Under the pieces are notes generated by a model. That model was not told the DNA's origin and made no database searches. It worked only from the letters and a program-made list of their open reading frames with translations. The position numbers and the translations under genes were made by a program. 64,000 nucleotides of DNA. Origin: an uncultured Methanobrevibacter sp. GTDB taxonomy: Archaea; Methanobacteriota; Methanobacteria; Methanobacteriales; Methanobacteriaceae. The DNA lies in contig OMVY01000003.1 in NCBI GenBank assembly GCA_900314635.1, positions 1 through 64,000 on the forward strand, given 5' to 3'. Positions 5,907-58,866 of this stretch are shown one piece after another. Within the stretch, counting starts at the first letter, position 1. Every line of letters starts with the position of its first letter.

Positions 5907-6229
5907 TTCAAAATTTTTTTTTAATTTATTTTTTGATATCCTTAATGTATTAATTTTTTAATACATTGGATTTTATGTTTTTAAAGGGTATTATTTTTTT
6001 AATATATCTAGATGTGTTATGTTTTTAAAGGGGATTATTTTTTTAATATATCTAGATGTGTTATGTTTTTAAAGGGGATTATTTTTTTAATACATTCTGA
6101 ATCATTTTTCAAAAAATTATTTTTCCCATCTTTTTTTAAAACTTTTATAATAGTTTGTATATATTATTATTCAACAATAATTTTTATATCTTGACTCGAT
6201 TTTTGATTTAAATTAGTTGTGTGATTTTT
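5907..6229. other. Intergenic gap with terminator and tandem repeats
   Basis: This 323-base gap has T-runs right after truD (5914-5930, terminator-like), a 44-bp tandem repeat block (entered separately) and AT-rich promoter-like sequence before 6230. A 60-codon open frame here consists of translated repeats and is not called a gene. Confidence 0.5.
5960..6088 (+). repeat. 44-bp tandem repeat, about 3 copies
   Basis: Two identical 44-base units occupy 6001-6044 and 6045-6088, preceded by a diverged 41-base unit at 5960-6000. Each unit contains TTTTTAAAGGGG followed by ATTATTTTTTT. There are no unique spacers, so it is not CRISPR. Confidence 0.9.
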
Positions 6230-6619
6230 ATGGTGGATTGCAGGAATATTTCTAAGGGAAAAGCAAGTGGAGAGTTAATCTGTAGTGATGAGGCTATAAG
6301 CTTCCTGGGGGGAGTGAACCCTGAAACCGGTGAGGTCATTGACCCAAACCATGAGTTAAAAGGCCAAATCATTAAAGACAAGATTCTTTTCATTCCAGGT
6401 GGGAAAGGTTCAACTGTCGGCTCTTATGTGATTTTCCAGATGAAAAAGAACAATACTGCTCCAAAAGCAATCATCTGCCTCAAGGCCGAGCCGATTATAG
6501 CAACAGGTGCGATAATGTCAGATATTCCAATGGTCGATTCCCCATCCGACATCAGCGGATTGGTCGACGGTGCTTCCGTTGAAGTGGATAGCGACAATGC
6601 TACAATCACTATTCTCTAA
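6230..6619 (+). CDS. Phosphomevalonate dehydratase small subunit (aconitase X swivel domain, DUF126)
   Basis: This 129-residue protein matches the DUF126/AcnX swivel-domain family. With the large AcnX subunit it dehydrates 5-phosphomevalonate in the modified archaeal mevalonate pathway that supplies isoprenoid lipids. Visible hallmarks are the long beta-rich fold, FIPGGKGSTVGSYV with the conserved serine-rich loop, and the C-terminal IPMVDSPSD. ATG 6230 is used, preceded by GTGAT; the GTG at 6221 is part of that signal. The large subunit is usually adjacent in other genomes but is not in this window, so it must be encoded elsewhere. The next gene is an unrelated amidohydrolase. Confidence 0.85.
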   Translation: MVDCRNISKGKASGELICSDEAISFLGGVNPETGEVIDPNHELKGQIIKDKILFIPGGKGSTVGSYVIFQMKKNNTAPKAIICLKAEPIIATGAIMSDIPMVDSPSDISGLVDGASVEVDSDNATITIL

Positions 6620-6693
6620 TTTATCCAGATATGATTATTGCTTTTATTTGAATCATGCTATTGAATTATTTTTACTGTCTGTGAGATGTTAGA

Positions 6694-7929
6694 ATGTCTT
6701 CTTTATTTATTAAAAATGTAAATATCCTGAATCCATTTAGTGATGAGATTCTGGATGAGAGAAATGTCTTTATAAAAGGAAATAAAATAGAATCCGTAGG
6801 TGTTAATGAAACCACATTGGTAGGTAGCTATAAGGTCATAGATGGTCAGGACGCATTTCTTCTTCCAGGGTTCATAGATTCACACGCCCATATCATGGCG
6901 AATGGCTTTCACAAGGCGGAAACCATGAAAAATCCATTGGCTCTGCACTTCTATAGGGCATTGGACAATATGAAAGCGACTCTCAATGCAGGGGTTACAA
7001 GCATCAGGGACTGCGGCCTTGCAGATATTGGCGTTAAAATGGCGCAAGAGAGGGGCATGCTTCGCTCTCCACGTTTGAATATATCCGTCCAGCCTTTGTC
7101 AATTACTGGAGGGCACTTTGACTTTCACTTGAATTCCGGCTTTGACATGGAAATAAGATATCCTGGATTTCCTTCAGGGGTTTGCGATGGTGTTGAAGGG
7201 GTTTTAAAGAAAACCCGCCAGGTAATAAGGGCTCAGGCGGATTTCATCAAGATCATGGCAAGCGGAGGGGTTTTAAGTGCTTACTCCTCTCCAGAAAATC
7301 CTCAATTCAATTCAAAAGAGCTCGCTGCTATTGTAAATGAGGCAAAAGCCAATGATTTGAATGTTGTGGCCCACTGCCACAGCTTGAAAGGAATGAACAA
7401 CTGCATAAAGGCAGGTGTCAAATCCATTGAACACGGCACTTTCATTGATAGGAAAACTGCTCAAGCTATTGCCAAGAAGAGAATATATCTTACACCTACT
7501 CTAGTTGTCCATCACACCTTGATTGAAGAGGGTTTTCCTTCATGGGACAATTTTGCAAAAGAAAGACTTAAAAAGCTTGAAGAAGTTGTCAAGATACAAA
7601 AGGAAAATATTTCAATTGCTTATGAAGAGGGTGTCAGATTCCTTATGGGTTCCGACTGCGGAGTAATCGACCACGGCCGCAACCTTGGTGAGCTAAAATA
7701 TCTGGTTGATATTGGAATGGAGCCTATTGAGGCTATTGAAGCGGGAACCATAAGGGGTGCAAGGTTCTTCAAACAAGATGACAGGTTGGGCTCCATTGAA
7801 GAGGGAAAGCTGGCTGACTTGATTATGGTAAAAGGCAATCCGGTAGATGACATTTCCATACTTGCGGATAATGATAATATTAAGAAAGTCGTGCTTGACG
7901 GCAAGCTGGTTAAAGATAAATTAATTTAA
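6694..7929 (+). CDS. Amidohydrolase family protein (imidazolonepropionase/Xaa-Pro dipeptidase-like)
   Basis: This 411-residue cytoplasmic metal-dependent hydrolase has a TIM-barrel amidohydrolase fold. Visible motifs are LLPGFIDSHAHIM (first metal-binding His-x-His, near residue 65), the carboxylated-lysine candidate in ADFIKIMASGG, VVAHCHSLKG and SIEHGTFID (further metal histidines), and MGSDCGVIDHGRN with the catalytic aspartate. The C-terminus returns to the small beta-domain (GSIEEGKLADLIMVKGNP). Relatives hydrolyse cyclic amides or Xaa-Pro dipeptides. The substrate cannot be assigned from sequence. The start is ATG 6694 with only a weak GTGAG upstream. Confidence 0.8.
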   Translation: MSSLFIKNVNILNPFSDEILDERNVFIKGNKIESVGVNETTLVGSYKVIDGQDAFLLPGFIDSHAHIMANGFHKAETMKNPLALHFYRALDNMKATLNAGVTSIRDCGLADIGVKMAQERGMLRSPRLNISVQPLSITGGHFDFHLNSGFDMEIRYPGFPSGVCDGVEGVLKKTRQVIRAQADFIKIMASGGVLSAYSSPENPQFNSKELAAIVNEAKANDLNVVAHCHSLKGMNNCIKAGVKSIEHGTFIDRKTAQAIAKKRIYLTPTLVVHHTLIEEGFPSWDNFAKERLKKLEEVVKIQKENISIAYEEGVRFLMGSDCGVIDHGRNLGELKYLVDIGMEPIEAIEAGTIRGARFFKQDDRLGSIEEGKLADLIMVKGNPVDDISILADNDNIKKVVLDGKLVKDKLI

Positions 7930-47443: not shown

Positions 47444-47639
47444 TTATTGAGTTTATTTTTTATAATAAACTCTTTATTTTTTTAAAATTTTTTTTATCAA
47501 ATATATTTGATAAAAATTATTAATTTATTAATAAATTCTAATAAATATTAATATTATTTTTATATTTTTTAAAATAATTTTCATAATTTCCTTGTAATTT
47601 AAATGTTTTTCATGTTTATAGCAAATTTTTGTGGTTTCT

Positions 47640-50600
47640 ATGAATGTCAGTAATAATAAGTTTATAAATAAAATTGTAGTTGTCGTTTTCATTTCCATCT
47701 TATGTTTGTGTTGTTTAAATTTTGTTTTTGCGACTGATGAGGATTATATTGGAGGGTATTCCAATTCACTTTTATCATCTTCTGAAATCTCAAATTCTTT
47801 AGAGATTGATTGCAATGAAGACATTGGGCTTGATGAAAAGGAATCTGATAAATATGATTCAACAAATAATGTTGATGCAAATGACAAGCTTTTAGTTGCT
47901 AATGTAGATTCTAATGATTCATCTAACTGTTTGAAGGATGGTGTTCATTTTTCAAACGTGTCTTCTGTTGCTAGTGATGTAAGTTATACCGCAAGCTCTT
48001 CCAAAACTAAAACAAAGATTGTCGCATCCAATTTGAATATGAATTACTATGACGGCAGCAAGATGATTGCTTATATAAAAACCAGCTCAAACAAGCCTAT
48101 CAAAGGACTTAAGGTTACATTCAAAGTCAATGGCAAGACTTACAACCGCACATCAGATTCAAATGGAAAAGTAGTTTTAGGAATTACCAAAGGCATTACA
48201 TTATATCCAGGAACTTATTCCTGCGTGATCAAGTTTGCAGGAACCTCCTCTTATGCAGCATCAAGCAAAACGGTCAACATCACTGTAAAGAAATGGAACA
48301 CAAAAATTCTTGCAAATAACCTGGCTTGTTATTACAACGATTCAGTCAACCTCGTCGCTACTTTACAAAACAGCAGCAGCAAGGCCATCAAAGGAAAATC
48401 AATTAGTTTCATAATAAATGGTGTCACTTACTCACGCACCACAGATTCCAGCGGCAAGGCCACATTATCCTTGCCCAAATTAAATCCAGGCACTTATTCA
48501 TGCCAGATCAAATTTGCAGGCGACAAGGTAAATGCCTCTTCCAGCAAAACCATTAATGTAACTGTGAATAAGATTCCAACCAGTCTTTATGCCTATGGAT
48601 TGAATATTACATATGGGGATGAATACAAGATTTTTGTTAAGGTCAAAGACAATAAAGGCAATATTCTGGAAAATAAAACAGTTTACCTTATATTGAACCA
48701 TGCTCCCCATGGAGTTACAGATGAAGAAGGCAAAATTAGCGTAATTGCCTTCCCTCCTGGTGTTTGGAACTGTGATTATTCATTTTTTGGTGATGATTAT
48801 TACGGACCATCCACTGGGAGAGTTACATATTCAGTAAGTGTTGCAAGCCCTATTGTCTCTCTGGAGAGTGGCATTTATAATGATTCCAATAGGACAGTTT
48901 CCATTTCATCCCTTTATGGAGAAACTATTTATTCCAGTTTGGATAATGGCCTTAGCTGGAATGAAAGTTTGAGTAATGTTTCTTACACTCTAACTGAAGG
49001 TAATTGGACTTTAAAAGCTTACGTTTCATTGGATGGTTATAATGGCCCAGTAGTTGAGAGAAATTATTTCATAGGAAACCTTCCTCCCAATGTATGGGCT
49101 AATTATGAATCCGGCATATATAATGATTCTTTCAGTGTTGAATTATTCGCTAGCGATGATAATGATGACAGTCCTGTGATTTATTATACTTGCGACGGCA
49201 GCTTGCCTAATACAAACAGCAGTGTCTATTCAGGCCCTATCCCTATTTCCAACACTTCCAACTGCACTGCTTTGAAGTTCTTCACCATAAATAAATATGG
49301 GCATGTAAGCGATATTGTCAGCGCTTATTATTTCTTTAGTGATGTTATTGCCAATTTGAATAATGGAAAAATTTTCACCAATATCCAAGAAGCCGTTGAT
49401 GATAATGATACATGCAATGGTGATGTTATTGGCATAAGTACTGATATTTTTGGTTCTGTAAATATAAATAAGGGGATCATTTTAAAAGCCTGCGGCCATA
49501 AGCCGGTTTATTGGTATGGAATAAATGATGAATCAATTGTTAACATTTTTTATGATAATGTAATTATAGATGGATTTAATTTTACAGGTTCAAATGTTTT
49601 TAATTTAAAATTTGCAGAAAATTGCTCAATTATAAATAATTATGCTTATGTTGAAAAAGGATATGGTTTTAAGATTTTCCATTGTTCTTTTTGCAATGTA
49701 ATAAATAATACTTTTTATGCAAATAATTCTGAGGTCATAGCTAACCAAATAAAGGCTACAAGTTATTGCACAATTACTGATAACCAAATTGTCGTGTTTA
49801 ATAACCAGCGTGTTTTAAATTCTTCAGAATTTAATGCTTCTGATAGTGTTTATAATTTGAATGTTAACAAATCCATTGCAAGCTTGAATAGCAATCTCAC
49901 TTGTTTAGCAAATAAAGAAATTATCATGTTTGTAGATGGTATTAGATATGATTCTTTAACCAATAATCATGGCGAGGTTTATTTGCCTCTTACTTTATCT
50001 GAAGGTTTGCATGAGATAATTTTGTATTTTAAAGGAGATGAGAACTATTTAAGTTCTTATAAATCTTTTAATTTGTTTGCTGTGAATGATGAAGAGGATA
50101 TTGGCATTTTCGCAAGCCATGGCAGTGGTTTTTATAATTCTTCTGATTTGCTGGTCAATCTTTCTTCATATGAAGAGGCTAATATTTTTTGCAGTTTTGA
50201 TAATGGTTCAAGCTGGAGCAAATATGATAATAACATATGTTATAATTTGACTGAAGGAATATGGGACATTTTAGCTTATTGCTCATTATATGATTATAAT
50301 AGTTCCGTATGCAATTATAGTTTTGTTATCGGCAATTCGTCTCCTTTAGTCTGGTCAGATCATGGTTCCGGTATTTATGAAGAATCATTTTATGTTAATT
50401 TAAGTTCTTTTTCCAGCATAGATGACGACGTGTTAATATATTATACTTTGGATGGCAGTCTTCCAACTACTGAGAGTTTAATATATAATTATTCTTTATT
50501 TGTATCTAATCAATCTGCTCTAACATCTTTGCGCTTTTTTGCTAGTGATAGATATGGCCATAAAAGTGATGTGATTTCCATTTATTATTTCTTCGGCGAT

Positions 50601-53600
50601 GTGATTGCCAATTTAAATACAGGCAAGGTTTTCAGCACAGTTCAAGATGCTATCGATGATGCAGATACATCTGCTGGCGACGTGATTGAGATTAGTTGTA
50701 ACTTAGATGAGTCTGCAGTTTTAAATAAAAGTGTTAATTTAAGATCTTGTGATTATCATCGTGTTAATTGGACTCATGATTCTTCTGATTTTTCATTATC
50801 TCTAAATGTTGATGGCGTATTTATTGAAGGGTTTGTTTTTAACTGCCTTGATGATGGTGTTGTCATTAATCTTAATAGATCTTCCAATTGCATAATTATT
50901 GATAACATTTTTGTAATGGATAATGGAATTTCAATCTATGATTTTAGTGGGGATGATTTGACCTCCCATAATAACACTATTTTATTTAATGGTTTTTTAG
51001 GTAATTCCAGCGCTTTTATTCAATTAAATAATATTGAAAACTATTCTTTCATAGGAAATTATTTCAATCAATTAAGTAAAGTTGAAGACGAATTTCTCAT
51101 ATCTTCTCTCTGTAATCTGAGCTATGCTTATGGCATTCTTTTGAATTCTTCAATTAATTCTGTATTTTATGAGAATGTTTTTGCTAGTGGTTCTTTTGCA
51201 TTATTTATTAATAACTCTATCAATAATTACTTTGCAAATAATAATGTTTCTAATAATTCTATAGCAATGGGAATTATGGGGCCCGATAATGTAATTTTTA
51301 ATAATTCATTGGTCTTTAATGAGTTTGCTGTTGTTATTGATGGAATTAATAATAGCATTATTAGCAATACAATTGTGGATAATGATTTTGGTGTTTATTC
51401 CAATATTTCCTCATTTAATCTTAGTGTGAATTTTAATAGAATTTCCAATAATCATAATTTCGGAGTTTATATTTCTGATGGTTCAATCAATGCTTCCAAT
51501 AATTGGTGGGGCCATAATAATGTATCATTAGGTGAAAATAATTGCGATTTGTATTTTGCCAATAATTTGAATGTTAGTTATGAACCTTATTTGGTTTTAA
51601 GCATTAATATAGGAGAGTATAAAATTAAAAATTTCTTTGCTGAGAATTGCTCTTTCTGTGCGGATCTAACTCATAATAATTTAGGAGAAGATGTTTCTGT
51701 TTTAGGATGCGTACCTGATTGCGATATCATATTTGATATGGCTTGTAGCTATTATGATTCTGATGAGGAATTAATTGATGAAAATAACTCTTTTGATACT
51801 AAATTAATATCAGGCAGGTCTTCACATATTTTTAATTTGAAATTAAATAATAATGTGTCTGTGTTCTTGGATAATGAACTAGTCTCTTATTTCCTGGATT
51901 GCCCTCCACAATCTTTAGCAAATATTTACATTAGCAGCGATGCAATAATTTGCAATACTGATAATCATTTGAACTATGGTTTCATCATTCCATTTAATGA
52001 TTCTGTGAATTGGTTTAACGTTATTTGGAAATCCACCGGTCTTTTTGAAGATGAAGTTTATATTATTGTTGACGGTGATATTATTGGCTCTTTCAGTGTT
52101 GAGAATTCTTTATATCATCAAATCAAAGGTTCTTACTCTGAAGATGTTTTTAATGCAATAAAATTATATAATAAATTTTTATATAATAATTTATATAAGC
52201 ATAAAGCCATAGTTTATACATGGATTTCTTTAATTTATAATTTAAATGATTTAAATCTTATCGAAGGAGAATATTATTCTAATAATTGGGGAGATATTAC
52301 TGCTAATGATTTGAACAGGCTTTTAGAATATTATAATACTGATGTTCATAGTGTCTTATTGAATATATTAATGAGTTCCTATAATCTTTCCAGTGTGGAT
52401 ATGTATTTTATTGACCACTATCATCAGGGGTTCATGGATAATATTACTGTTGATGTTAGTTATCTTGGCAGTTCCGGCAGCAGTTTCAATATTCATTCCC
52501 AAGATGATGTAGAGTCTTTTTATTGGTTGGGGGATTATACTCGTCGCAGTGCTGTTTTAAGTTATGATAACGGCATATATCCTTATACCGTAGGTGATGA
52601 TTCTCCAATTTATCATGACATATTGGAGACCATTCATTGTTCCAATGGCACTGTCAAATGGAATTATCATAATAGTTATGGTTATTATACTGAAGGCAAT
52701 TATGATGGTTTTTTAACTTTTACTTTTGCAAGTGACAAGGTGAGTGATGATGTCTTGAGTTTTTGGCTGGGTCAAAAGAATCGTACATGTGAAAATGGGT
52801 CACTGTATTATGATAATGGTTTTATGAAAGCTTCTTATGGCAGTTTTATTGAAGGCTTGGATGTGATTTATTGCAGTGATTTGTGTGCGGATATTGCCGC
52901 TCTGCGTTTTAATGTGTCCTGGGAGAGGACTGGCCCAATGGTTATGAGTGTTCGTGATGACATGCTTGGAACTGTTTTAAGCGGAGAGTGTGGTTTCTAC
53001 TTCGGCCGTACCGCTTATGGAGATCCTGATGATGTGAAAAGCTTTTATTTTGCATGCAGCAGCAGCTTTTCTCCTATTGAGCATTATGTGTCTCAGGCTT
53101 TGTTCCCGAATGAAGGCAATAATGGCAGTGCCACAGTTGGCCTGGGTTTCATACTTGATTGCGGCGGTGATATTGAGATTATTTCTGATGGTGATTTGAC
53201 TCTTATTCGGGAAGTAGGTTCCAATGAGAAGATCTTGCTTTTTGATTCTGCTACTGGTTTATTGCGTGATGAAATTATTACTGGCTATAATGGTGCTTAT
53301 TGTTATTCCGATCAGCAGACTGACTGGGCTTGTGACTTTGCTTATGATATGTTGGATGCTAAGGATGATATTTGGAATTTTGTTTTTAATAATTCTTTTA
53401 TGGATTGGGCTAATAATGATGTTCTGGGCATTGCGGGCAGTGTTAGCATGAGTGTTGGGATTGCTTGCCTTCCTGCTTTTCCTGTTGGGACTGTTGTTGG
53501 TTTGGGTTTGATCGGCTTTGGATTGTATTCCACTTATTATGCTGATGATTTGAACAAAGGTTTGACAGATCAGAGGTTGGCTCATTTTGGTATTGATGTA

Positions 53601-53984
53601 GGTTTTTCCTTGATTCCTTTTATTGGCCCTGAGGGCAGGATTGTTAAAACTGTTGTTAGTTCTGATGCTGTGATTGGCAGGATTGTCTTATCCAAGGGTG
53701 TAGGCAGTGTTTCTGATAGGATTGTCACACGAAGTTCTTTTGCTTTTGAGAGGTATTTGGTGGAAAATGGTGAAACTGAATTATTGTATAATGGTTTATC
53801 TAGGGCTAGCACTAAGTTTGGTACTTTAGAATCTGCATTCAGAACAGTATATGGGAAGGAAATTAAAAGTCAATTATTTAATATTTTATCTGGATATGCT
53901 AAAGGAAAAATCCGCCATTATGGTTTGAATCTTATATTTGATGATTTTAATTTTAAAGGTGCACTTATTGATACTTTCAATTAA
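47640..53984 (+). CDS. Giant secreted adhesin-like protein with toxin-like C-terminus
   Basis: A 2114-residue protein. It has a signal peptide (about 1-32, hydrophobic IVVVVFISILCLCCLNFVF) and three Ig-like domains (about 125-405; TSDSNGKV and TTDSSGKA strands). Two copies of a ~410-residue block follow (about 405-815 and 825-1240). Each block has chitobiase-like DGSLP segments, a GDVIANLN-G-(I/V)F motif and an Asn-rich beta-helix. Residues about 1300-1690 are unknown, and about 1690-1910 form a conserved cassette (GFLTFTFASDKVSDDVLSFW onward). A hydrophobic segment (VSMSVGIACLPAFPVGTVVG; later FGIDVGFSLIPFIGP) and a ~110-residue tail end the protein. The hydrophobic segment resembles the pre-toxin regions of bacterial polymorphic toxins. 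No cell-wall anchor is visible. Start ATG 47640 follows GTGG. Confidence 0.85.
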   Translation: MNVSNNKFINKIVVVVFISILCLCCLNFVFATDEDYIGGYSNSLLSSSEISNSLEIDCNEDIGLDEKESDKYDSTNNVDANDKLLVANVDSNDSSNCLKDGVHFSNVSSVASDVSYTASSSKTKTKIVASNLNMNYYDGSKMIAYIKTSSNKPIKGLKVTFKVNGKTYNRTSDSNGKVVLGITKGITLYPGTYSCVIKFAGTSSYAASSKTVNITVKKWNTKILANNLACYYNDSVNLVATLQNSSSKAIKGKSISFIINGVTYSRTTDSSGKATLSLPKLNPGTYSCQIKFAGDKVNASSSKTINVTVNKIPTSLYAYGLNITYGDEYKIFVKVKDNKGNILENKTVYLILNHAPHGVTDEEGKISVIAFPPGVWNCDYSFFGDDYYGPSTGRVTYSVSVASPIVSLESGIYNDSNRTVSISSLYGETIYSSLDNGLSWNESLSNVSYTLTEGNWTLKAYVSLDGYNGPVVERNYFIGNLPPNVWANYESGIYNDSFSVELFASDDNDDSPVIYYTCDGSLPNTNSSVYSGPIPISNTSNCTALKFFTINKYGHVSDIVSAYYFFSDVIANLNNGKIFTNIQEAVDDNDTCNGDVIGISTDIFGSVNINKGIILKACGHKPVYWYGINDESIVNIFYDNVIIDGFNFTGSNVFNLKFAENCSIINNYAYVEKGYGFKIFHCSFCNVINNTFYANNSEVIANQIKATSYCTITDNQIVVFNNQRVLNSSEFNASDSVYNLNVNKSIASLNSNLTCLANKEIIMFVDGIRYDSLTNNHGEVYLPLTLSEGLHEIILYFKGDENYLSSYKSFNLFAVNDEEDIGIFASHGSGFYNSSDLLVNLSSYEEANIFCSFDNGSSWSKYDNNICYNLTEGIWDILAYCSLYDYNSSVCNYSFVIGNSSPLVWSDHGSGIYEESFYVNLSSFSSIDDDVLIYYTLDGSLPTTESLIYNYSLFVSNQSALTSLRFFASDRYGHKSDVISIYYFFGDVIANLNTGKVFSTVQDAIDDADTSAGDVIEISCNLDESAVLNKSVNLRSCDYHRVNWTHDSSDFSLSLNVDGVFIEGFVFNCLDDGVVINLNRSSNCIIIDNIFVMDNGISIYDFSGDDLTSHNNTILFNGFLGNSSAFIQLNNIENYSFIGNYFNQLSKVEDEFLISSLCNLSYAYGILLNSSINSVFYENVFASGSFALFINNSINNYFANNNVSNNSIAMGIMGPDNVIFNNSLVFNEFAVVIDGINNSIISNTIVDNDFGVYSNISSFNLSVNFNRISNNHNFGVYISDGSINASNNWWGHNNVSLGENNCDLYFANNLNVSYEPYLVLSINIGEYKIKNFFAENCSFCADLTHNNLGEDVSVLGCVPDCDIIFDMACSYYDSDEELIDENNSFDTKLISGRSSHIFNLKLNNNVSVFLDNELVSYFLDCPPQSLANIYISSDAIICNTDNHLNYGFIIPFNDSVNWFNVIWKSTGLFEDEVYIIVDGDIIGSFSVENSLYHQIKGSYSEDVFNAIKLYNKFLYNNLYKHKAIVYTWISLIYNLNDLNLIEGEYYSNNWGDITANDLNRLLEYYNTDVHSVLLNILMSSYNLSSVDMYFIDHYHQGFMDNITVDVSYLGSSGSSFNIHSQDDVESFYWLGDYTRRSAVLSYDNGIYPYTVGDDSPIYHDILETIHCSNGTVKWNYHNSYGYYTEGNYDGFLTFTFASDKVSDDVLSFWLGQKNRTCENGSLYYDNGFMKASYGSFIEGLDVIYCSDLCADIAALRFNVSWERTGPMVMSVRDDMLGTVLSGECGFYFGRTAYGDPDDVKSFYFACSSSFSPIEHYVSQALFPNEGNNGSATVGLGFILDCGGDIEIISDGDLTLIREVGSNEKILLFDSATGLLRDEIITGYNGAYCYSDQQTDWACDFAYDMLDAKDDIWNFVFNNSFMDWANNDVLGIAGSVSMSVGIACLPAFPVGTVVGLGLIGFGLYSTYYADDLNKGLTDQRLAHFGIDVGFSLIPFIGPEGRIVKTVVSSDAVIGRIVLSKGVGSVSDRIVTRSSFAFERYLVENGETELLYNGLSRASTKFGTLESAFRTVYGKEIKSQLFNILSGYAKGKIRHYGLNLIFDDFNFKGALIDTFN

Positions 53985-54027
53985 AGATTTGACTATTCAA
54001 TAAATATTTTAATATTTTGGTGAGATC

Positions 54028-54372
54028 ATGTTTTTTAAAAAATTTTTATCATTTTTTAATTCAAAAATTAATATGATTTTTAACATTAATGATAATAAAA
54101 GCGTTAGAAATTTTTTATTATTTTTTGGATTAATTTTAATTATCTCCATCATAATATGCATTGTACATAATACTATAGGAGGGTTGTTTTTTTATGCGAG
54201 TATTTTTTCTGTTTATGATACATACTTAATTTATCACGAGCAATCAAAAAATAATTTTAAAAATATCATTCTTAAGAACAATTACTGTAAACTACTTTAT
54301 TATATTTACATCGTTATGTGGATACTCTTTATTCTAATTGGTATTGAGGTAATTATAAATTTCTTAAAGTAA
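54028..54372 (+). CDS. Small membrane protein, candidate immunity protein
   Basis: A 114-residue protein with a basic N-terminus and three hydrophobic segments (about 28-46, 50-66 and 92-112), clearly inner-membrane. I recognise no family. It follows the giant protein by 43 bases on the same strand, with GGTG five bases before its ATG, so it is well translated. In polymorphic toxin loci the gene right after the toxin encodes the immunity protein, and membrane immunity proteins are common. That role is inferred from position only. Confidence 0.6.
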   Translation: MFFKKFLSFFNSKINMIFNINDNKSVRNFLLFFGLILIISIIICIVHNTIGGLFFYASIFSVYDTYLIYHEQSKNNFKNIILKNNYCKLLYYIYIVMWILFILIGIEVIINFLK

Positions 54373-54391
54373 ATATTGTTAACTGGGTTAG

Positions 54392-55668
54392 GGGGATGGT
54401 TTTTTAACTTTTACTTTTGCAGGGAAAATGTGATGATGATGTTTTGAGTTTGTATGAATCAGAAGAATCGTACTTTGGATAATGGCAGTTTGTATTATGA
54501 TTATGGTTTTATGAAGGCTGCTTATGGCAGTTTTTTAGAGGGCTTGTTGGTGATTTATTGTAATGATTTGGTGGCTGATTGTTCTGCTCTGCGTTTTAAT
54601 GTGTCCTGGGAGCGTACTAATCCTATGGTTATGAGTGTTCGTGATGATAATGTCAGAACTATTTTGAGTGGTGAGAGCAGTTTTTATTTCGGCCGTACTG
54701 CCTATGGTGATTTGGATGCTGTTAGGGCTTTTTATTTTGCCTGTTCAGCCAGTTTCTCTTCCTTCGAGCAGTATGTCGGCACTGCCTTGTTTCCACGGAT
54801 TGGTGATAATTCCAGTGTAACTACTGGTTTGGGTTTTATATTGGATAATGGAGGCAGTATTGAGATCATTCAAGATGGAAACTTCACTCTTATTCGTGAA
54901 GCAGGCTCCAATGAGAGGGTTTTGGTTTTTGATTTCAATACGGGTCTCTTGCATGATCAGATGTTGGAGCTTTATGGTGCTTTCTGTTATTCCAACCAGC
55001 AGACTGACTGGGCTTATGATCTGGGCCGTGAGCTGCTAGATAATTTTGACTCTATTTGGGGTTATTTGTTTGGTGATGGTGATTTTCCAGATTTAAGTCT
55101 TTCTGCAGGCAATTTGATTAAATCCGCTAATCTCTTTGTTGGCCTAGGCGGCATGTTTGTTGTTGAGGGTGCTGAATTAACTGGTACTTTGACTGATTTG
55201 GGTGCTCTTGTTGGAAGTTTGGGTATGGGCAGTTTGGCTTCTGCTTGCTTGATTACACTTCCAATTATATTTTTTTATAGTATGGAGCCTGTTGGTGGAC
55301 CTGATGAAAATCAGAAAATAAGCGAATTTTATCAGTCTCATAATTATGATGATAATCCTGATATTATCCAAATAAAAAGTTCAAAAGAGTGGATTAAAGA
55401 GTTAAAGAATATACAAACAGGTGAGGATATTCCAAAAAATGGTGACATAAATTTATTGGATGGTACTGATGGCGATCCAGAAAATCTGTTTAAAGCATTA
55501 CTTATTGTTTCCTCATTCACAGGACTTTTAATTATTGAAGATGTTAATGTAAATAATGGTTATGCATATAATGATAATAATGGTGGTTTAAATAGCACAC
55601 CTGCTAATTTTACACTTGATGTTAATTATAATAAATCAGAAGGTAAAATGACATTAACAAAAGCATGA
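54392..55668 (+). pseudogene. Orphan C-terminal cassette of the giant protein, different end
   Basis: From 54392 the DNA resumes homology with the conserved C-terminal cassette of the giant protein (matching 52702 onward), beginning GATGGTTTTTTAACTTTTAC, with no signal peptide and with frameshifts and stops up to 54450. From ATG 54454 there is one open frame of 404 codons. Residues 1-190 closely follow the giant protein (NGSLYYD, FNVSWERT, FYFGRTAYGD, NQQTDWAYD). The rest is different: a hydrophobic glycine-rich segment (about 215-280) and a new tail of about 120 residues. No ribosome-binding signal precedes 54454, so it is probably not expressed as such. Confidence 0.7.
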
Positions 55669-55683
55669 TTTGATTTTAGAGGT

Positions 55684-56802
55684 TTGATAAAGGTGTTATT
55701 TAATTCATATGCAAAGAAAAGGCTCCATAAAAAAAGTCTGAAATCATATAATGAAGGAGTTGATTTATTAAGAAATAATGATTTTGAAAAAGCTTTGCCG
55801 ATTTTTAAAAAGTTATATGATGAAAATTTTGAAATTGAGGAAGTTTTGATTAAATTATGCTTTATTCATAAGGAATTATGCAATTATAATGACAGTTTAA
55901 AGTATATTGATGAATTCTTGGCTTTGAGTCCGAATTCAAGCAGGGGATTAAATTACAAATGTGAAATTCTAGCAAGAATGGGGTGTTATGAAAAATCATT
56001 AGAACTTTCAGACAGGATTCTTGAAATGAATGATGGGAATCTTAATAATGCCAAATTAATTAAAGTAAAATCCTTAATGGAATTAAAAAGATTTGATGAA
56101 GCTTTGAATTTGCTAGAAACTGTAAGATTTAATGAATATGATGAAGCTAATTATGATTTATTGCTTATTAAAGGAAATGATTATTTTTATTTGAATCAGT
56201 ATGAAAAGGCTATTGAATGTTATTTTGCGGCTTTGGATTTCGTTTGCGAGGATTATGGTTTATTTTATAATATTGGGAATGCATATGCTCAATTAAATGA
56301 TTATGAAAATTCAATGATATTTTTTGACAAGGCATTGGAATTAAATGAAGGCGATGAAAATTTATTGTATAATCGAAGTATAGTTCTTTATTATCTTGAA
56401 AGGTATGATGAGGCGTTAGTTTCTATAAACAAGGCTTTGGATATTTGCTGCAATGAAAGTTATCTGTATAATAAGGCAGGAATTTTATATATGATGGGTA
56501 GTTTTCAGGAATCTTTAGAGATATATGAAAGTCTTTTTGATGATTCATCCCAGGACATGGATTTGTTGGAAAAGATCTGCAGGATTTTATATGAATTAAA
56601 TAATTTTGAGGATGTTTTGAAGTATTGTGATATTGCTTTATCCATTGATGCCAAGAATGAGGATGTCCTGTTTTACAAGGTTAAGGCTTTTAAAGGCTTA
56701 AAGGATTATGGCCGCGCATTGGAATGCATTGATGAACTTATTGATATTAATCCTGGTAATGAGGAATATGATAATGAAAAAAGGGATTTGCTCAAGTATT
56801 AA
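55684..56802 (+). CDS. TPR-repeat protein
   Basis: A ~370-residue soluble protein consisting of about ten tetratricopeptide repeats; typical units read NYNDSLKYIDEFLALSPNSS, YFYLNQYEKAIECYFAALDF and YDEALVSINKALDICC. TPR arrays bind partner proteins. No signal peptide. The start is uncertain: TTG 55684 lies one base after AGAGG, while GTG 55693 lies ten bases after it. It follows the orphan cassette by 16 bases and precedes a second TPR gene, so the pair may belong to the adhesin locus functionally. Confidence 0.8.
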   Translation: MIKVLFNSYAKKRLHKKSLKSYNEGVDLLRNNDFEKALPIFKKLYDENFEIEEVLIKLCFIHKELCNYNDSLKYIDEFLALSPNSSRGLNYKCEILARMGCYEKSLELSDRILEMNDGNLNNAKLIKVKSLMELKRFDEALNLLETVRFNEYDEANYDLLLIKGNDYFYLNQYEKAIECYFAALDFVCEDYGLFYNIGNAYAQLNDYENSMIFFDKALELNEGDENLLYNRSIVLYYLERYDEALVSINKALDICCNESYLYNKAGILYMMGSFQESLEIYESLFDDSSQDMDLLEKICRILYELNNFEDVLKYCDIALSIDAKNEDVLFYKVKAFKGLKDYGRALECIDELIDINPGNEEYDNEKRDLLKY

Positions 56803-56848: not shown

Positions 56849-57613
56849 ATGTTTATCTTAAAATATGTTTTTTTATTTTTAGGGGAATTATTTTATATTC
56901 TGGGTTTTTATAAGTTTTCTCTATATTTTTATAGCTTTGTTTATAGGGATAATCCTAAAGATCTGGAATGTTTGGAGATGATAATCTCTTGTAATGGTTA
57001 TCTTGGCAATTATGATTCAGTAATTGAATATTCTGATAAATATTTGAAAATAGATAAAAATAACTTTGATATTTATTATTTTAAAGCTCAAGCATTATTC
57101 ATATTTGAAAGATATGAAGAGTCTTTGAAGTATTATGATTTGGCTTTGGATATCGATTCAGATAATGTGCTGGGTTTGATGGGGAAGACAAATGTTTTAT
57201 TAAAATTAGATGAGGATGAATTGTTTATAGAGTATTGTGAAAAAATCTTAGATATGGACCCTGACAATTTTTATATTTTATATAATATGGGTTATTTCTA
57301 TTTTAAAAAGGATAAATTGGATTTGGCGCTGCAATTTGTAAATGAAGCTTTGAAAATTAAAAAAAGCAGTTTAGCTGCTTTGTTATTAAAATCGAGAATT
57401 TTAGCTGATTTGGATTTATTTGATGATTCATTGGTGGTGTTAAATAGTTTATTGAGAAAGGATCCTAATAATGTTGATGTGCTGTTTTTCAAGGCTCTGG
57501 TTTTAATGGATACTGGAGAAATTGATGAAGCAAAGAAATGTGCTAATCATATTTTGGAATTAGACAGCAATTTTAAGGATGTTCCGGAAATTAAGGATAT
57601 TTTGAATAGTTAG
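56849..57613 (+). CDS. TPR-repeat protein with N-terminal membrane segment
   Basis: A 254-residue protein. The first ~30 residues are strongly hydrophobic (ILKYVFLFLGELFYILGFYK), likely a membrane anchor. About six TPR units follow, for example YDSVIEYSDKYLKIDKNNFD and YEESLKYYDLALDIDSDN. Unlike its neighbour at 55684 it would be membrane-bound, with repeats on the cytoplasmic side if the anchor is not cleaved. GGTG stands five bases before the ATG. Confidence 0.82.
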   Translation: MFILKYVFLFLGELFYILGFYKFSLYFYSFVYRDNPKDLECLEMIISCNGYLGNYDSVIEYSDKYLKIDKNNFDIYYFKAQALFIFERYEESLKYYDLALDIDSDNVLGLMGKTNVLLKLDEDELFIEYCEKILDMDPDNFYILYNMGYFYFKKDKLDLALQFVNEALKIKKSSLAALLLKSRILADLDLFDDSLVVLNSLLRKDPNNVDVLFFKALVLMDTGEIDEAKKCANHILELDSNFKDVPEIKDILNS

Positions 57614-57724: not shown

Positions 57725-57736
57725 TAATAAGAATTT

Positions 57737-57865
57737 ATGGGAATGGAAATTTTATGTTTTGGAATACTGTTGATTATGGTTTGGATTGTATTGTTGATGG
57801 TATTTCTCCATATATATTCACTTAAAAAAATTATAAGCTTTCTCATTTTTGGAGATTTTATATGA
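57737..57865 (+). CDS. 42-residue membrane peptide overlapping the next gene
   Basis: ATG 57737 opens a 42-codon frame (MGMEILCFGILLIMVWIVLL... rich in Ile, Leu and Val, then SLKKI). Its TGA overlaps the ATG of the following gene (ATGA), a typical translational coupling. Against it: part of its DNA (57749-57790) is a nearly identical copy of 58415-58456, where another frame is read as tail remnant, and no clear ribosome-binding signal precedes it. It may therefore be a remnant in a chance frame. Confidence 0.3.
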   Translation: MGMEILCFGILLIMVWIVLLMVFLHIYSLKKIISFLIFGDFI

Positions 57866-58179
57866 TGTTTAATTTTCTTATTATTTCAACTGTTATAGAT
57901 AAAGAATATTTGAATAGGATTAAAAAGGGCCATGAAATAAAATTAGTGAAAAAATTTTTTATTTTTTATTTATTATTTTTCTTTGTTTCTTGTTTGTTGG
58001 TAATGTTTACTAAGTATAAACCATTTCTTTTCTTGATATTCTTTCCATATATGAGGGTTTTTAGTCCTCATTTTTATACTTTTAAAAAGGAAAGCGTGAT
58101 TTTGATAAAAAGTAGACATGTTCAATTATCTCTTTTATTTTCAATAATGTTTTTTTCTTTAGTAGTATTGTTTTATTAA
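57862..58179 (+). CDS. Small membrane protein, second immunity candidate
   Basis: A 105-residue membrane protein with three hydrophobic segments (about 28-46, 52-64 and 85-104) separated by basic stretches (IKKGHEIKLVKK, FKKESVILIKSR). GGAG lies eight bases before the ATG. It resembles the protein at 54028 in size and layout, though not obviously in sequence. It sits between fragments of the giant protein's C-terminal tail, as immunity genes do between orphan toxin modules. Function by inference only. Confidence 0.55.
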   Translation: MMFNFLIISTVIDKEYLNRIKKGHEIKLVKKFFIFYLLFFFVSCLLVMFTKYKPFLFLIFFPYMRVFSPHFYTFKKESVILIKSRHVQLSLLFSIMFFSLVVLFY

Positions 58180-58195
58180 TCTAGTGTTAAACTAA

Positions 58196-58655
58196 AATTG
58201 GCAGAGTTGTTGTTTTTAAAGGTTTGACTACTCTTTTTGAAAGATTATCGCTAGGGGTTAAAATAAAATTTTCTGTTCTTATTGGATAAGGGAGGTAGTG
58301 AGATTTTGTATAGTGCTAATGGAGGTGCTTTCAGGACTTATGTTAAGTATGGTACATTGGGAGCAGGTTTTAGAACTGCTTATGGAGGTACATTTTTAGA
58401 AGGATACCTTAATTTTATGTTTTGGAATACTGTTGCATATGGTTTGGATTGTTGTATAATGGTTTATCAAGAGCCAGTACCAAGTTTAGTATTTTGGAGT
58501 CTGCATTCAGAACATTATATGGAAATATATATGTTGATCAACTTAAATCATTAAGTAAAGGATATGTTGACAGTAAAATAGCTTGTATACTGTTTATGTT
58601 ATTTAATGAAGGTATGGTCACAAGCGCACAAGAAGTTTTGACATTAGATTTTTAG
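58196..58655 (+). pseudogene. Chimeric remnant of the giant protein's C-terminal tail
   Basis: Homology to the tail begins at 58196 (ATTGGCAGAGTTGTTG, compare 53674), passes a frame break near 58290 and continues as EILYSANGG and YGTLGAGFRTAYGG. At about 58456 the sequence switches at TTGTATAATGG to a near copy of 53785-53855, giving LLYNGLSRASTKFSILESAF in another frame, then a different ending to 58655. The piece is thus two tail variants joined at a shared short sequence. No ribosome-binding signal or signal peptide, so it is not an intact gene. Confidence 0.7.
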
Positions 58656-58866
58656 AAAATAATTAGTCTGCCATTTTATTTGTGAAGCAAGTTTTTAAAA
58701 AATTTTTTTCATTATTTTCAACATTTTGAGAAAAAACAGCTTATTTTAAAATCAGTAAAAAATAAATAAAAATAGAAAATAAGGGCAAAAGCCCTCTAAA
58801 ACTCTTTTTAAAACTTTTTAATTAAAACTTTTGGATAATCCCTAAAGTTTGTAATCAATTGCCAAA

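Follow-up and report, generated by a model that had tools for sequence, protein, structure and literature searches.

An open reading frame of 404 codons behind the gene for a giant surface protein of Methanobrevibacter is, together with the gene that follows it, probably an orphan module of tip and partner that belongs to a polymorphic-toxin-like system of archaea, in which the tip would be toxic and the partner would confer immunity. A wider proposal, which we hold in even balance, is that a polymorphic toxin system native to archaea extends across the Methanobacteriales and arose independently of CDI and Rhs; it would have a pre-toxin domain of its own, candidate effector tips, TPR or small membrane proteins for immunity, and arrays of orphans that would re-arm the surface protein by recombination. 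The window, i.e., the whole 64,000-nucleotide stretch analysed here, covers the opening 64 kb of a contig of 262 kb in a genome of 2.29 Mb, and all of its features described below lie on the forward strand. Related loci come from Methanobrevibacter, including M. olleyae SIG14 (G018) and RUG11990 (G031), and, judged by these named relatives, the source of the window is a rumen-type Methanobrevibacter.

The giant protein (2117 residues; 47631..53984, likely start ATG 47640) runs from N- to C-terminus through a signal peptide, Ig-like (Big) domains, CHB_HEX_C_1/Fn3-associated repeats, a long stalk and a pre-tip domain to a terminal tip; the signal peptide is recognised from sequence, the Big and CHB_HEX domains were matched, and the tips are variable. 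The pre-tip domain (52674..53378) has as its end the demarcation motif CYSDQQTDWA, and the giant's own tip (209 residues; 53355..53981) consists of a hydrophobic segment followed by a unique C-terminal part. Clear relatives of this tip are limited to the tip of a G035 giant (40%) and a remnant at 58449 within the window. Its candidate partner, a putative immunity protein of 114 residues with two to three membrane spans, follows at 54028..54372 with a Shine-Dalgarno sequence, GGTGA; a sequence link to the G035 partners was sought and none was found, despite the related tips. No FHA/haemagglutinin, VENN or CdiB was found in the 2117-residue protein and its neighbours; CdiB acts in an outer membrane, and these archaea have none. 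A search for RHS/YD repeats gave no RHS match in the giants of the window, G031 or L080, the last being a contig that is binned as a Bacteroidota MAG, probably in error, and carries the methanogen system with a giant, an orphan and two six-span partners. Against Pfam, NCBIfam and PADLOC, the tips and partners of the window showed no known domain for toxicity, immunity or delivery, generic TPR being the only match; six further tips had no toxin or immunity match in Pfam, and the tips gave no Ig match. In one relative, a protein with the pre-tip domain (L082:6263-8101) also bears a PKD domain and a pseudomurein-binding repeat, which suggests attachment to methanogen cell walls.

An earlier sequence-only reading had described the cassette as a leaderless duplicate of the giant's C-terminal end, with homology that sets in abruptly at the counterpart of 52702 and frame breaks in its first 60 bases. 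A blastn comparison between the 3' portion of the giant gene and 54000-55900 bears this out with a single alignment (636 columns, 75% identity, E 1e-114) that opens with 27 identical bases at 52704 / 54395; the homologous stretch begins at about 54393-54395 (giant about 52702) and ends at about 53335 / 55019. At its front lies a frame-broken remnant (54393..54453, from blastn and frame), in which the homologous frame reads DGFLTFTFAGKM up to a stop, and small indels and a TGA interrupt that frame before the orphan's own open frame (54454..55668). The latter, a truncated pre-tip domain with a different tip, has no visible signal peptide and no Shine-Dalgarno sequence, the duplex energy of its ATG with the 16S tail (-2.2) being at background level (-2.7). 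It is the sole second copy within its own genome, and its pre-tip domain is 69% identical in protein sequence to that of the giant. The two proteins do part completely, as had been claimed, but directly after a C-Y-x-x-Q-Q-T-x-W-A motif, ~30 residues before the first hydrophobic segment at which the divergence had been placed. Of the orphan's 209-residue tip (55039..55665), the N-terminal hydrophobic half is related to the tips of G018 and G031, and the last ~50 residues are unique.

The order in the window is giant, membrane-protein gene, start-less orphan tip and TPR gene. This last encodes TPR372 (372 residues; 55684..56802, with a Shine-Dalgarno sequence that fits GTG 55693), a candidate partner of the orphan tip by position and class; it has no close relative in the genus, and the pair occurs just once. 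Behind it stands TPR254 (254 residues; 56849..57613), whose own tip is missing and whose relatives are partner genes, located behind tips in G018 (61%) and G031 (49%) and standing alone in G028 (54%; L113), where the gene adjoins a RadB-like gene and again has no tip. Retention of TPR254 without a tip would be expected if the partner gives protection. Farther downstream, 57730..58656 holds debris of further giant-type tips, e.g., 58445-58525 with 84% DNA identity to the giant's tip, along with a 105-residue membrane protein (57862..58179) that has a Shine-Dalgarno sequence and no intact tip and is a candidate orphan partner. This degraded field with its 105-residue ORF apparently consists of older modules of the same array.

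Searching with a single giant sequence returned no related loci, and matches came with an alignment as query. The profile of the shared region (212 columns) matches giants of many relatives, roughly 550-3000 residues long, close to their C-terminal end, with a tip of about 130-280 residues after the match. With a cut-off of E <= 1e-4, 99 of 152 Methanobacteriota genomes have the pre-tip domain; among them are members of two families of the order other than the window's own, and a single genome from yet another family. The domain closes with a near-invariant CY, and with QQT(D/E)WA in most members of the genus to which the window belongs. Among 42 distinct tips in Methanobacteriota loci, 26 stand on long frames, all 26 with a complete pre-tip domain, and 16 on shorter frames, where the domain starts at 2, 26, 52, 56, 108, 133, 166, 171 or 186 of 212. 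Such scattered starts point to truncated donor fragments and not to a standalone protein family. Relatives do not carry the orphan as a gene with its own promoter and signal peptide throughout; their orphans start at these varied points, lack signal peptides and in some cases contain stops. A strongly hydrophobic segment lies near the start of 37 of the 42 tips and is found in 0 of 48 pre-tips. Median Shine-Dalgarno duplex energies are -2.5 kcal/mol for orphans (n=7), -5.9 for partners (n=33) and -2.7 for random positions.

Fold prediction gave a pLDDT of 48 for the orphan and 51 for the giant's end, the pre-tip domain being the sole part to reach about 70-85. Foldseek against the PDB with predicted orphan and giant-end models found no match with E <= 0.001, and sequence searches of the PDB produced only noise. 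In the pre-tip model (me1d6464b6f9a, residues 58-275) helix pairs alternate with four-strand sheets, and many of its insignificant Foldseek matches are proteasome subunits; that the domain might be an Ntn-hydrolase-like self-cleaving one is a guess. A diverged pre-tip domain also occurs in a protein of 940-1060 residues (L077:169-3063 and many g9 Methanobacteriaceae genomes), which seems to form a separate lineage and is possibly the ancestral surface protein. The Methanothermobacter-type loci L094-L104 (G140-G148, G150) are dense arrays of giants, orphan tips, TPR genes and small membrane genes, parts of them near-identical between species; for the 842-residue giants of L094 and L096, the next gene is a 91-residue three-span ORF.

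Two kinds of gene stand directly behind the tips: TPR genes, whose products have at most one predicted span, and genes for proteins that cross the membrane 2-6 times. For all 33 tip/partner pairs the nearest other tip belongs to the same partner class, which happened in 0 of 2000 label shuffles. Similarity of the tip C-terminus and that of the partner are correlated in both classes (Mantel r 0.73, 0/5000), more weakly after pre-tip similarity is removed (r 0.33, 94/5000, and r 0.34, 236/5000). In a rank-based Mantel test class A is not significant (221/1000), and the signal there therefore comes from a few clearly related pairs, such as G136/G137 and G018/G031. In the first of these, which spans two genera, the tips are about 70-73% identical and the adjoining TPR proteins 72%. 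Across these sequences, then, the cognate downstream gene co-varies with the C-terminal tip.

Exchange and gene conversion between giants and orphans can be read from the genomes of relatives. It had been suggested that a giant bearing the orphan's end be sought in other strains, and at the level of the tip family one exists: the G031 giant ends in it (41% over tip residues 4-159). In G136, orphan and giant are 99.2% identical over 623 bp, extending about 300 bp into the tip, and the orthologous orphans of G136 and G135 are 93.1% identical in this tract against about 98% in most flanking windows, for which gene conversion is the simplest reading. Giant and orphan of G136 share the hydrophobic segment and differ only behind it, so that entry and activity parts seem to be separately exchangeable. 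G136 also has a 3.9-kb block, comprising a second orphan and its TPR gene, that G135 lacks; the block has a clean left edge, placed at the onset of giant homology. The Methanothermobacter-type G148 and G150 have 5955 bp in common at 99.2% up to CYYHQQTE and then different tips; in G150, whose arrangement G140 repeats, the junction is followed by a tip and TPR gene (5953-7786), and only then, 1.8 kb downstream, by the G148-type tip, left behind as a degraded orphan. The G150 giant also has a frame break in its pre-tip domain upstream of the swap junction (L098 5600-5990, oriented), a sequencing error or real, owing to which the exchanged product in that assembly may be non-functional.

The window copy itself is old. 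Between giant and orphan dS is about 1.1, a saturated value, with no sign of recent exchange, so the earlier description as a duplicate stands for a second copy from 54393 onward and not for a fresh one. Over the pre-tip domain dN/dS is 0.22 against the giant and 0.12 against the G018 copy, pairwise values that cannot separate constraint before orphaning from constraint after. The orphan retains its open frame and, where the domain is present, the domain's invariant residues, and these may reflect time spent within a giant. As to the silent donor cassette that had been proposed, the anatomy fits (a shared stretch, a different tip, no start signals) and recombination is seen in relatives, but the unit also includes a partner gene. 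A donor role is supported by these comparisons for orphans as a class and is a candidate role for the window copy, which may equally be a demoted former tip retained for its partner gene.

We envisage the following mechanism. The secreted giant stalk would display its C-terminal tip toward neighbouring, probably related, cells, delivery being by contact, and the gene behind the tip would shield the producer, with a TPR protein acting in the cytosol for one class and a small membrane protein acting in the membrane for the other. Start-less tips and their partners, each with a piece of the pre-tip domain, would be held in reserve as an array downstream of the main gene; recombination in the shared stretch would place a spare tip and partner on the giant, and the old tip would become an orphan. 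Partner genes would stay expressed and could persist alone as protection. The hydrophobic tip segment may serve membrane entry, as does the first half of CdiA-CT, or may itself be the active part.

One other account of the open frame, a small independent protein that shares a domain with the giant by chance, agrees with an intact ORF and an ATG start and is nonetheless very improbable: an extracellular domain would be made with neither signal peptide nor ribosome site, homology to the giant extends upstream of the ATG into frame-broken DNA, and the places within the domain at which other orphans are truncated bear no relation to one another. Somewhat less improbable, though we still give it little credence, is that the orphan is a defunct relic of a giant end that has been displaced, surviving by chance and serving neither as donor nor for protection. 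A frame-broken start with no start signals, the plain debris further downstream and the stops in some relatives' orphans would all suit such decay. On the other hand, 404 codons have stayed open at a dS of about 1, pairwise dN/dS over the pre-tip domain is 0.12-0.22 (much of which possibly accrued within giants), invariant residues are retained where the domain is present, the partner genes are intact and have ribosome sites, and relatives show both gene conversion and module gain.

Toxin-free surface variation is unlikely as well, and it deserves more weight than either of these. Here the tips would be the binding or membrane-anchoring ends of adhesins, and their partners tip-specific chaperones, anchors or signalling partners. 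The giants are indeed adhesin-like (Ig, beta-helix, and the pseudomurein-binding repeat in a relative), hydrophobic tips could serve as anchors, a dedicated chaperone would likewise co-vary with its tip, and TPR proteins would be unusual as immunity proteins, a point against the toxin reading. The toxin reading also has against it the missing matches to toxin, immunity or delivery domains, the low-confidence folds, the single occurrence of the window's tip/TPR372 pair and the high dS between giant and orphan. Partners retained without tips (TPR254; G028), however, fit immunity genes and not chaperones, the TPR partners have no signal peptides, two unrelated partner types correspond to two tip classes, and the start signals missing from orphan tips are kept by the partners. 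That the exchanged unit is a tip plus its dedicated downstream partner argues for effector/immunity modules over tip variation alone. If the polymorphic-toxin-like reading is true, dominant rumen and gut methanogens bear exchangeable contact weapons, strain succession and kin recognition in methanogens can be put to the test, and the variable ends of Methanobrevibacter surface proteins and the TPR genes behind them are accounted for. Because the same arrays occur in complete Methanothermobacter-type genomes, the question can move to a cultured organism.

For polymorphic toxins of archaea, the key previous survey is that of Makarova et al. (2019, mBio e00715-19). Such toxins are described as generally absent from archaea, rare cases aside (Zhang et al., 2012, PMC3482391), and as of 2021 those predicted there were without experimental characterisation (Makarova et al., 2021, PMC8416519). 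A close likeness is to CDI and its orphan cdiA-CT/cdiI modules (Poole et al., 2011, PMC3150448), which also are start-less C-terminal fragments behind the main gene with variable upstream homology, diverge abruptly at a conserved motif (VENN in CDI, CYxxQQTxWA here), have a cognate downstream gene that can be expressed, and include an orphan that elsewhere is fused to a full-length protein as well as in situ tip displacement; the G148/G150 swap corresponds, in archaea, to the Microtus event of Yersinia pestis (PMC3150448). The features of CDI-type orphan modules are present in the methanogens, viz., start signals missing in the orphan, upstream homology kept and partner start signals kept. Unlike CDI, there is no FHA/haemagglutinin stalk, CdiB or VENN; the hosts are archaeal and have no outer membrane, the pre-tip domain is different, the partners are TPR or small membrane proteins, and the tips are candidate toxins. 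On these comparisons, the methanogen modules appear to work like CDI/Rhs orphan modules and to belong to neither.

The silent cassettes of Rhs, and the Rhs-type polymorphic toxins reported for one methanogen, Methanosarcina acetivorans (Zhang et al., 2012, PMC3482391), similarly have exchangeable C-terminal cassettes on a protein with a stalk, and immunity genes further downstream. The window, in contrast, has no RHS/YD repeats, DPxGL motif or recognised toxin domain, and archaeal Rhs is sporadic (PMC3482391), whereas 99 of 152 Methanobacteriota genomes contain pre-tip homologues. The stalk with signal or anchor, beta-helix and Ig-like repeats recalls the adhesin-like proteins of Methanobrevibacter and Methanosphaera, in a survey of which toxin, immunity, recombination and TPR go unmentioned (PMC11532034). 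For VARTIG modules of Thermococcales a likeness to polymorphic toxin systems has been drawn as well (Makarova et al., 2021, PMC8416519); they, too, feature a large archaeal surface protein whose C-terminus is hypervariable, along with smaller genes downstream that match that end. There it is a C-terminal Ig domain that varies, with no within-locus exchange seen (PMC8416519), while the methanogens have hydrophobic non-Ig tips, cognate partners, and within-locus conversion and displacement. Relative to CDI, Rhs and VARTIG as described in these three papers (PMC3150448, PMC3482391, PMC8416519), we provisionally regard the methanogen system as distinct, though of the same general kind.
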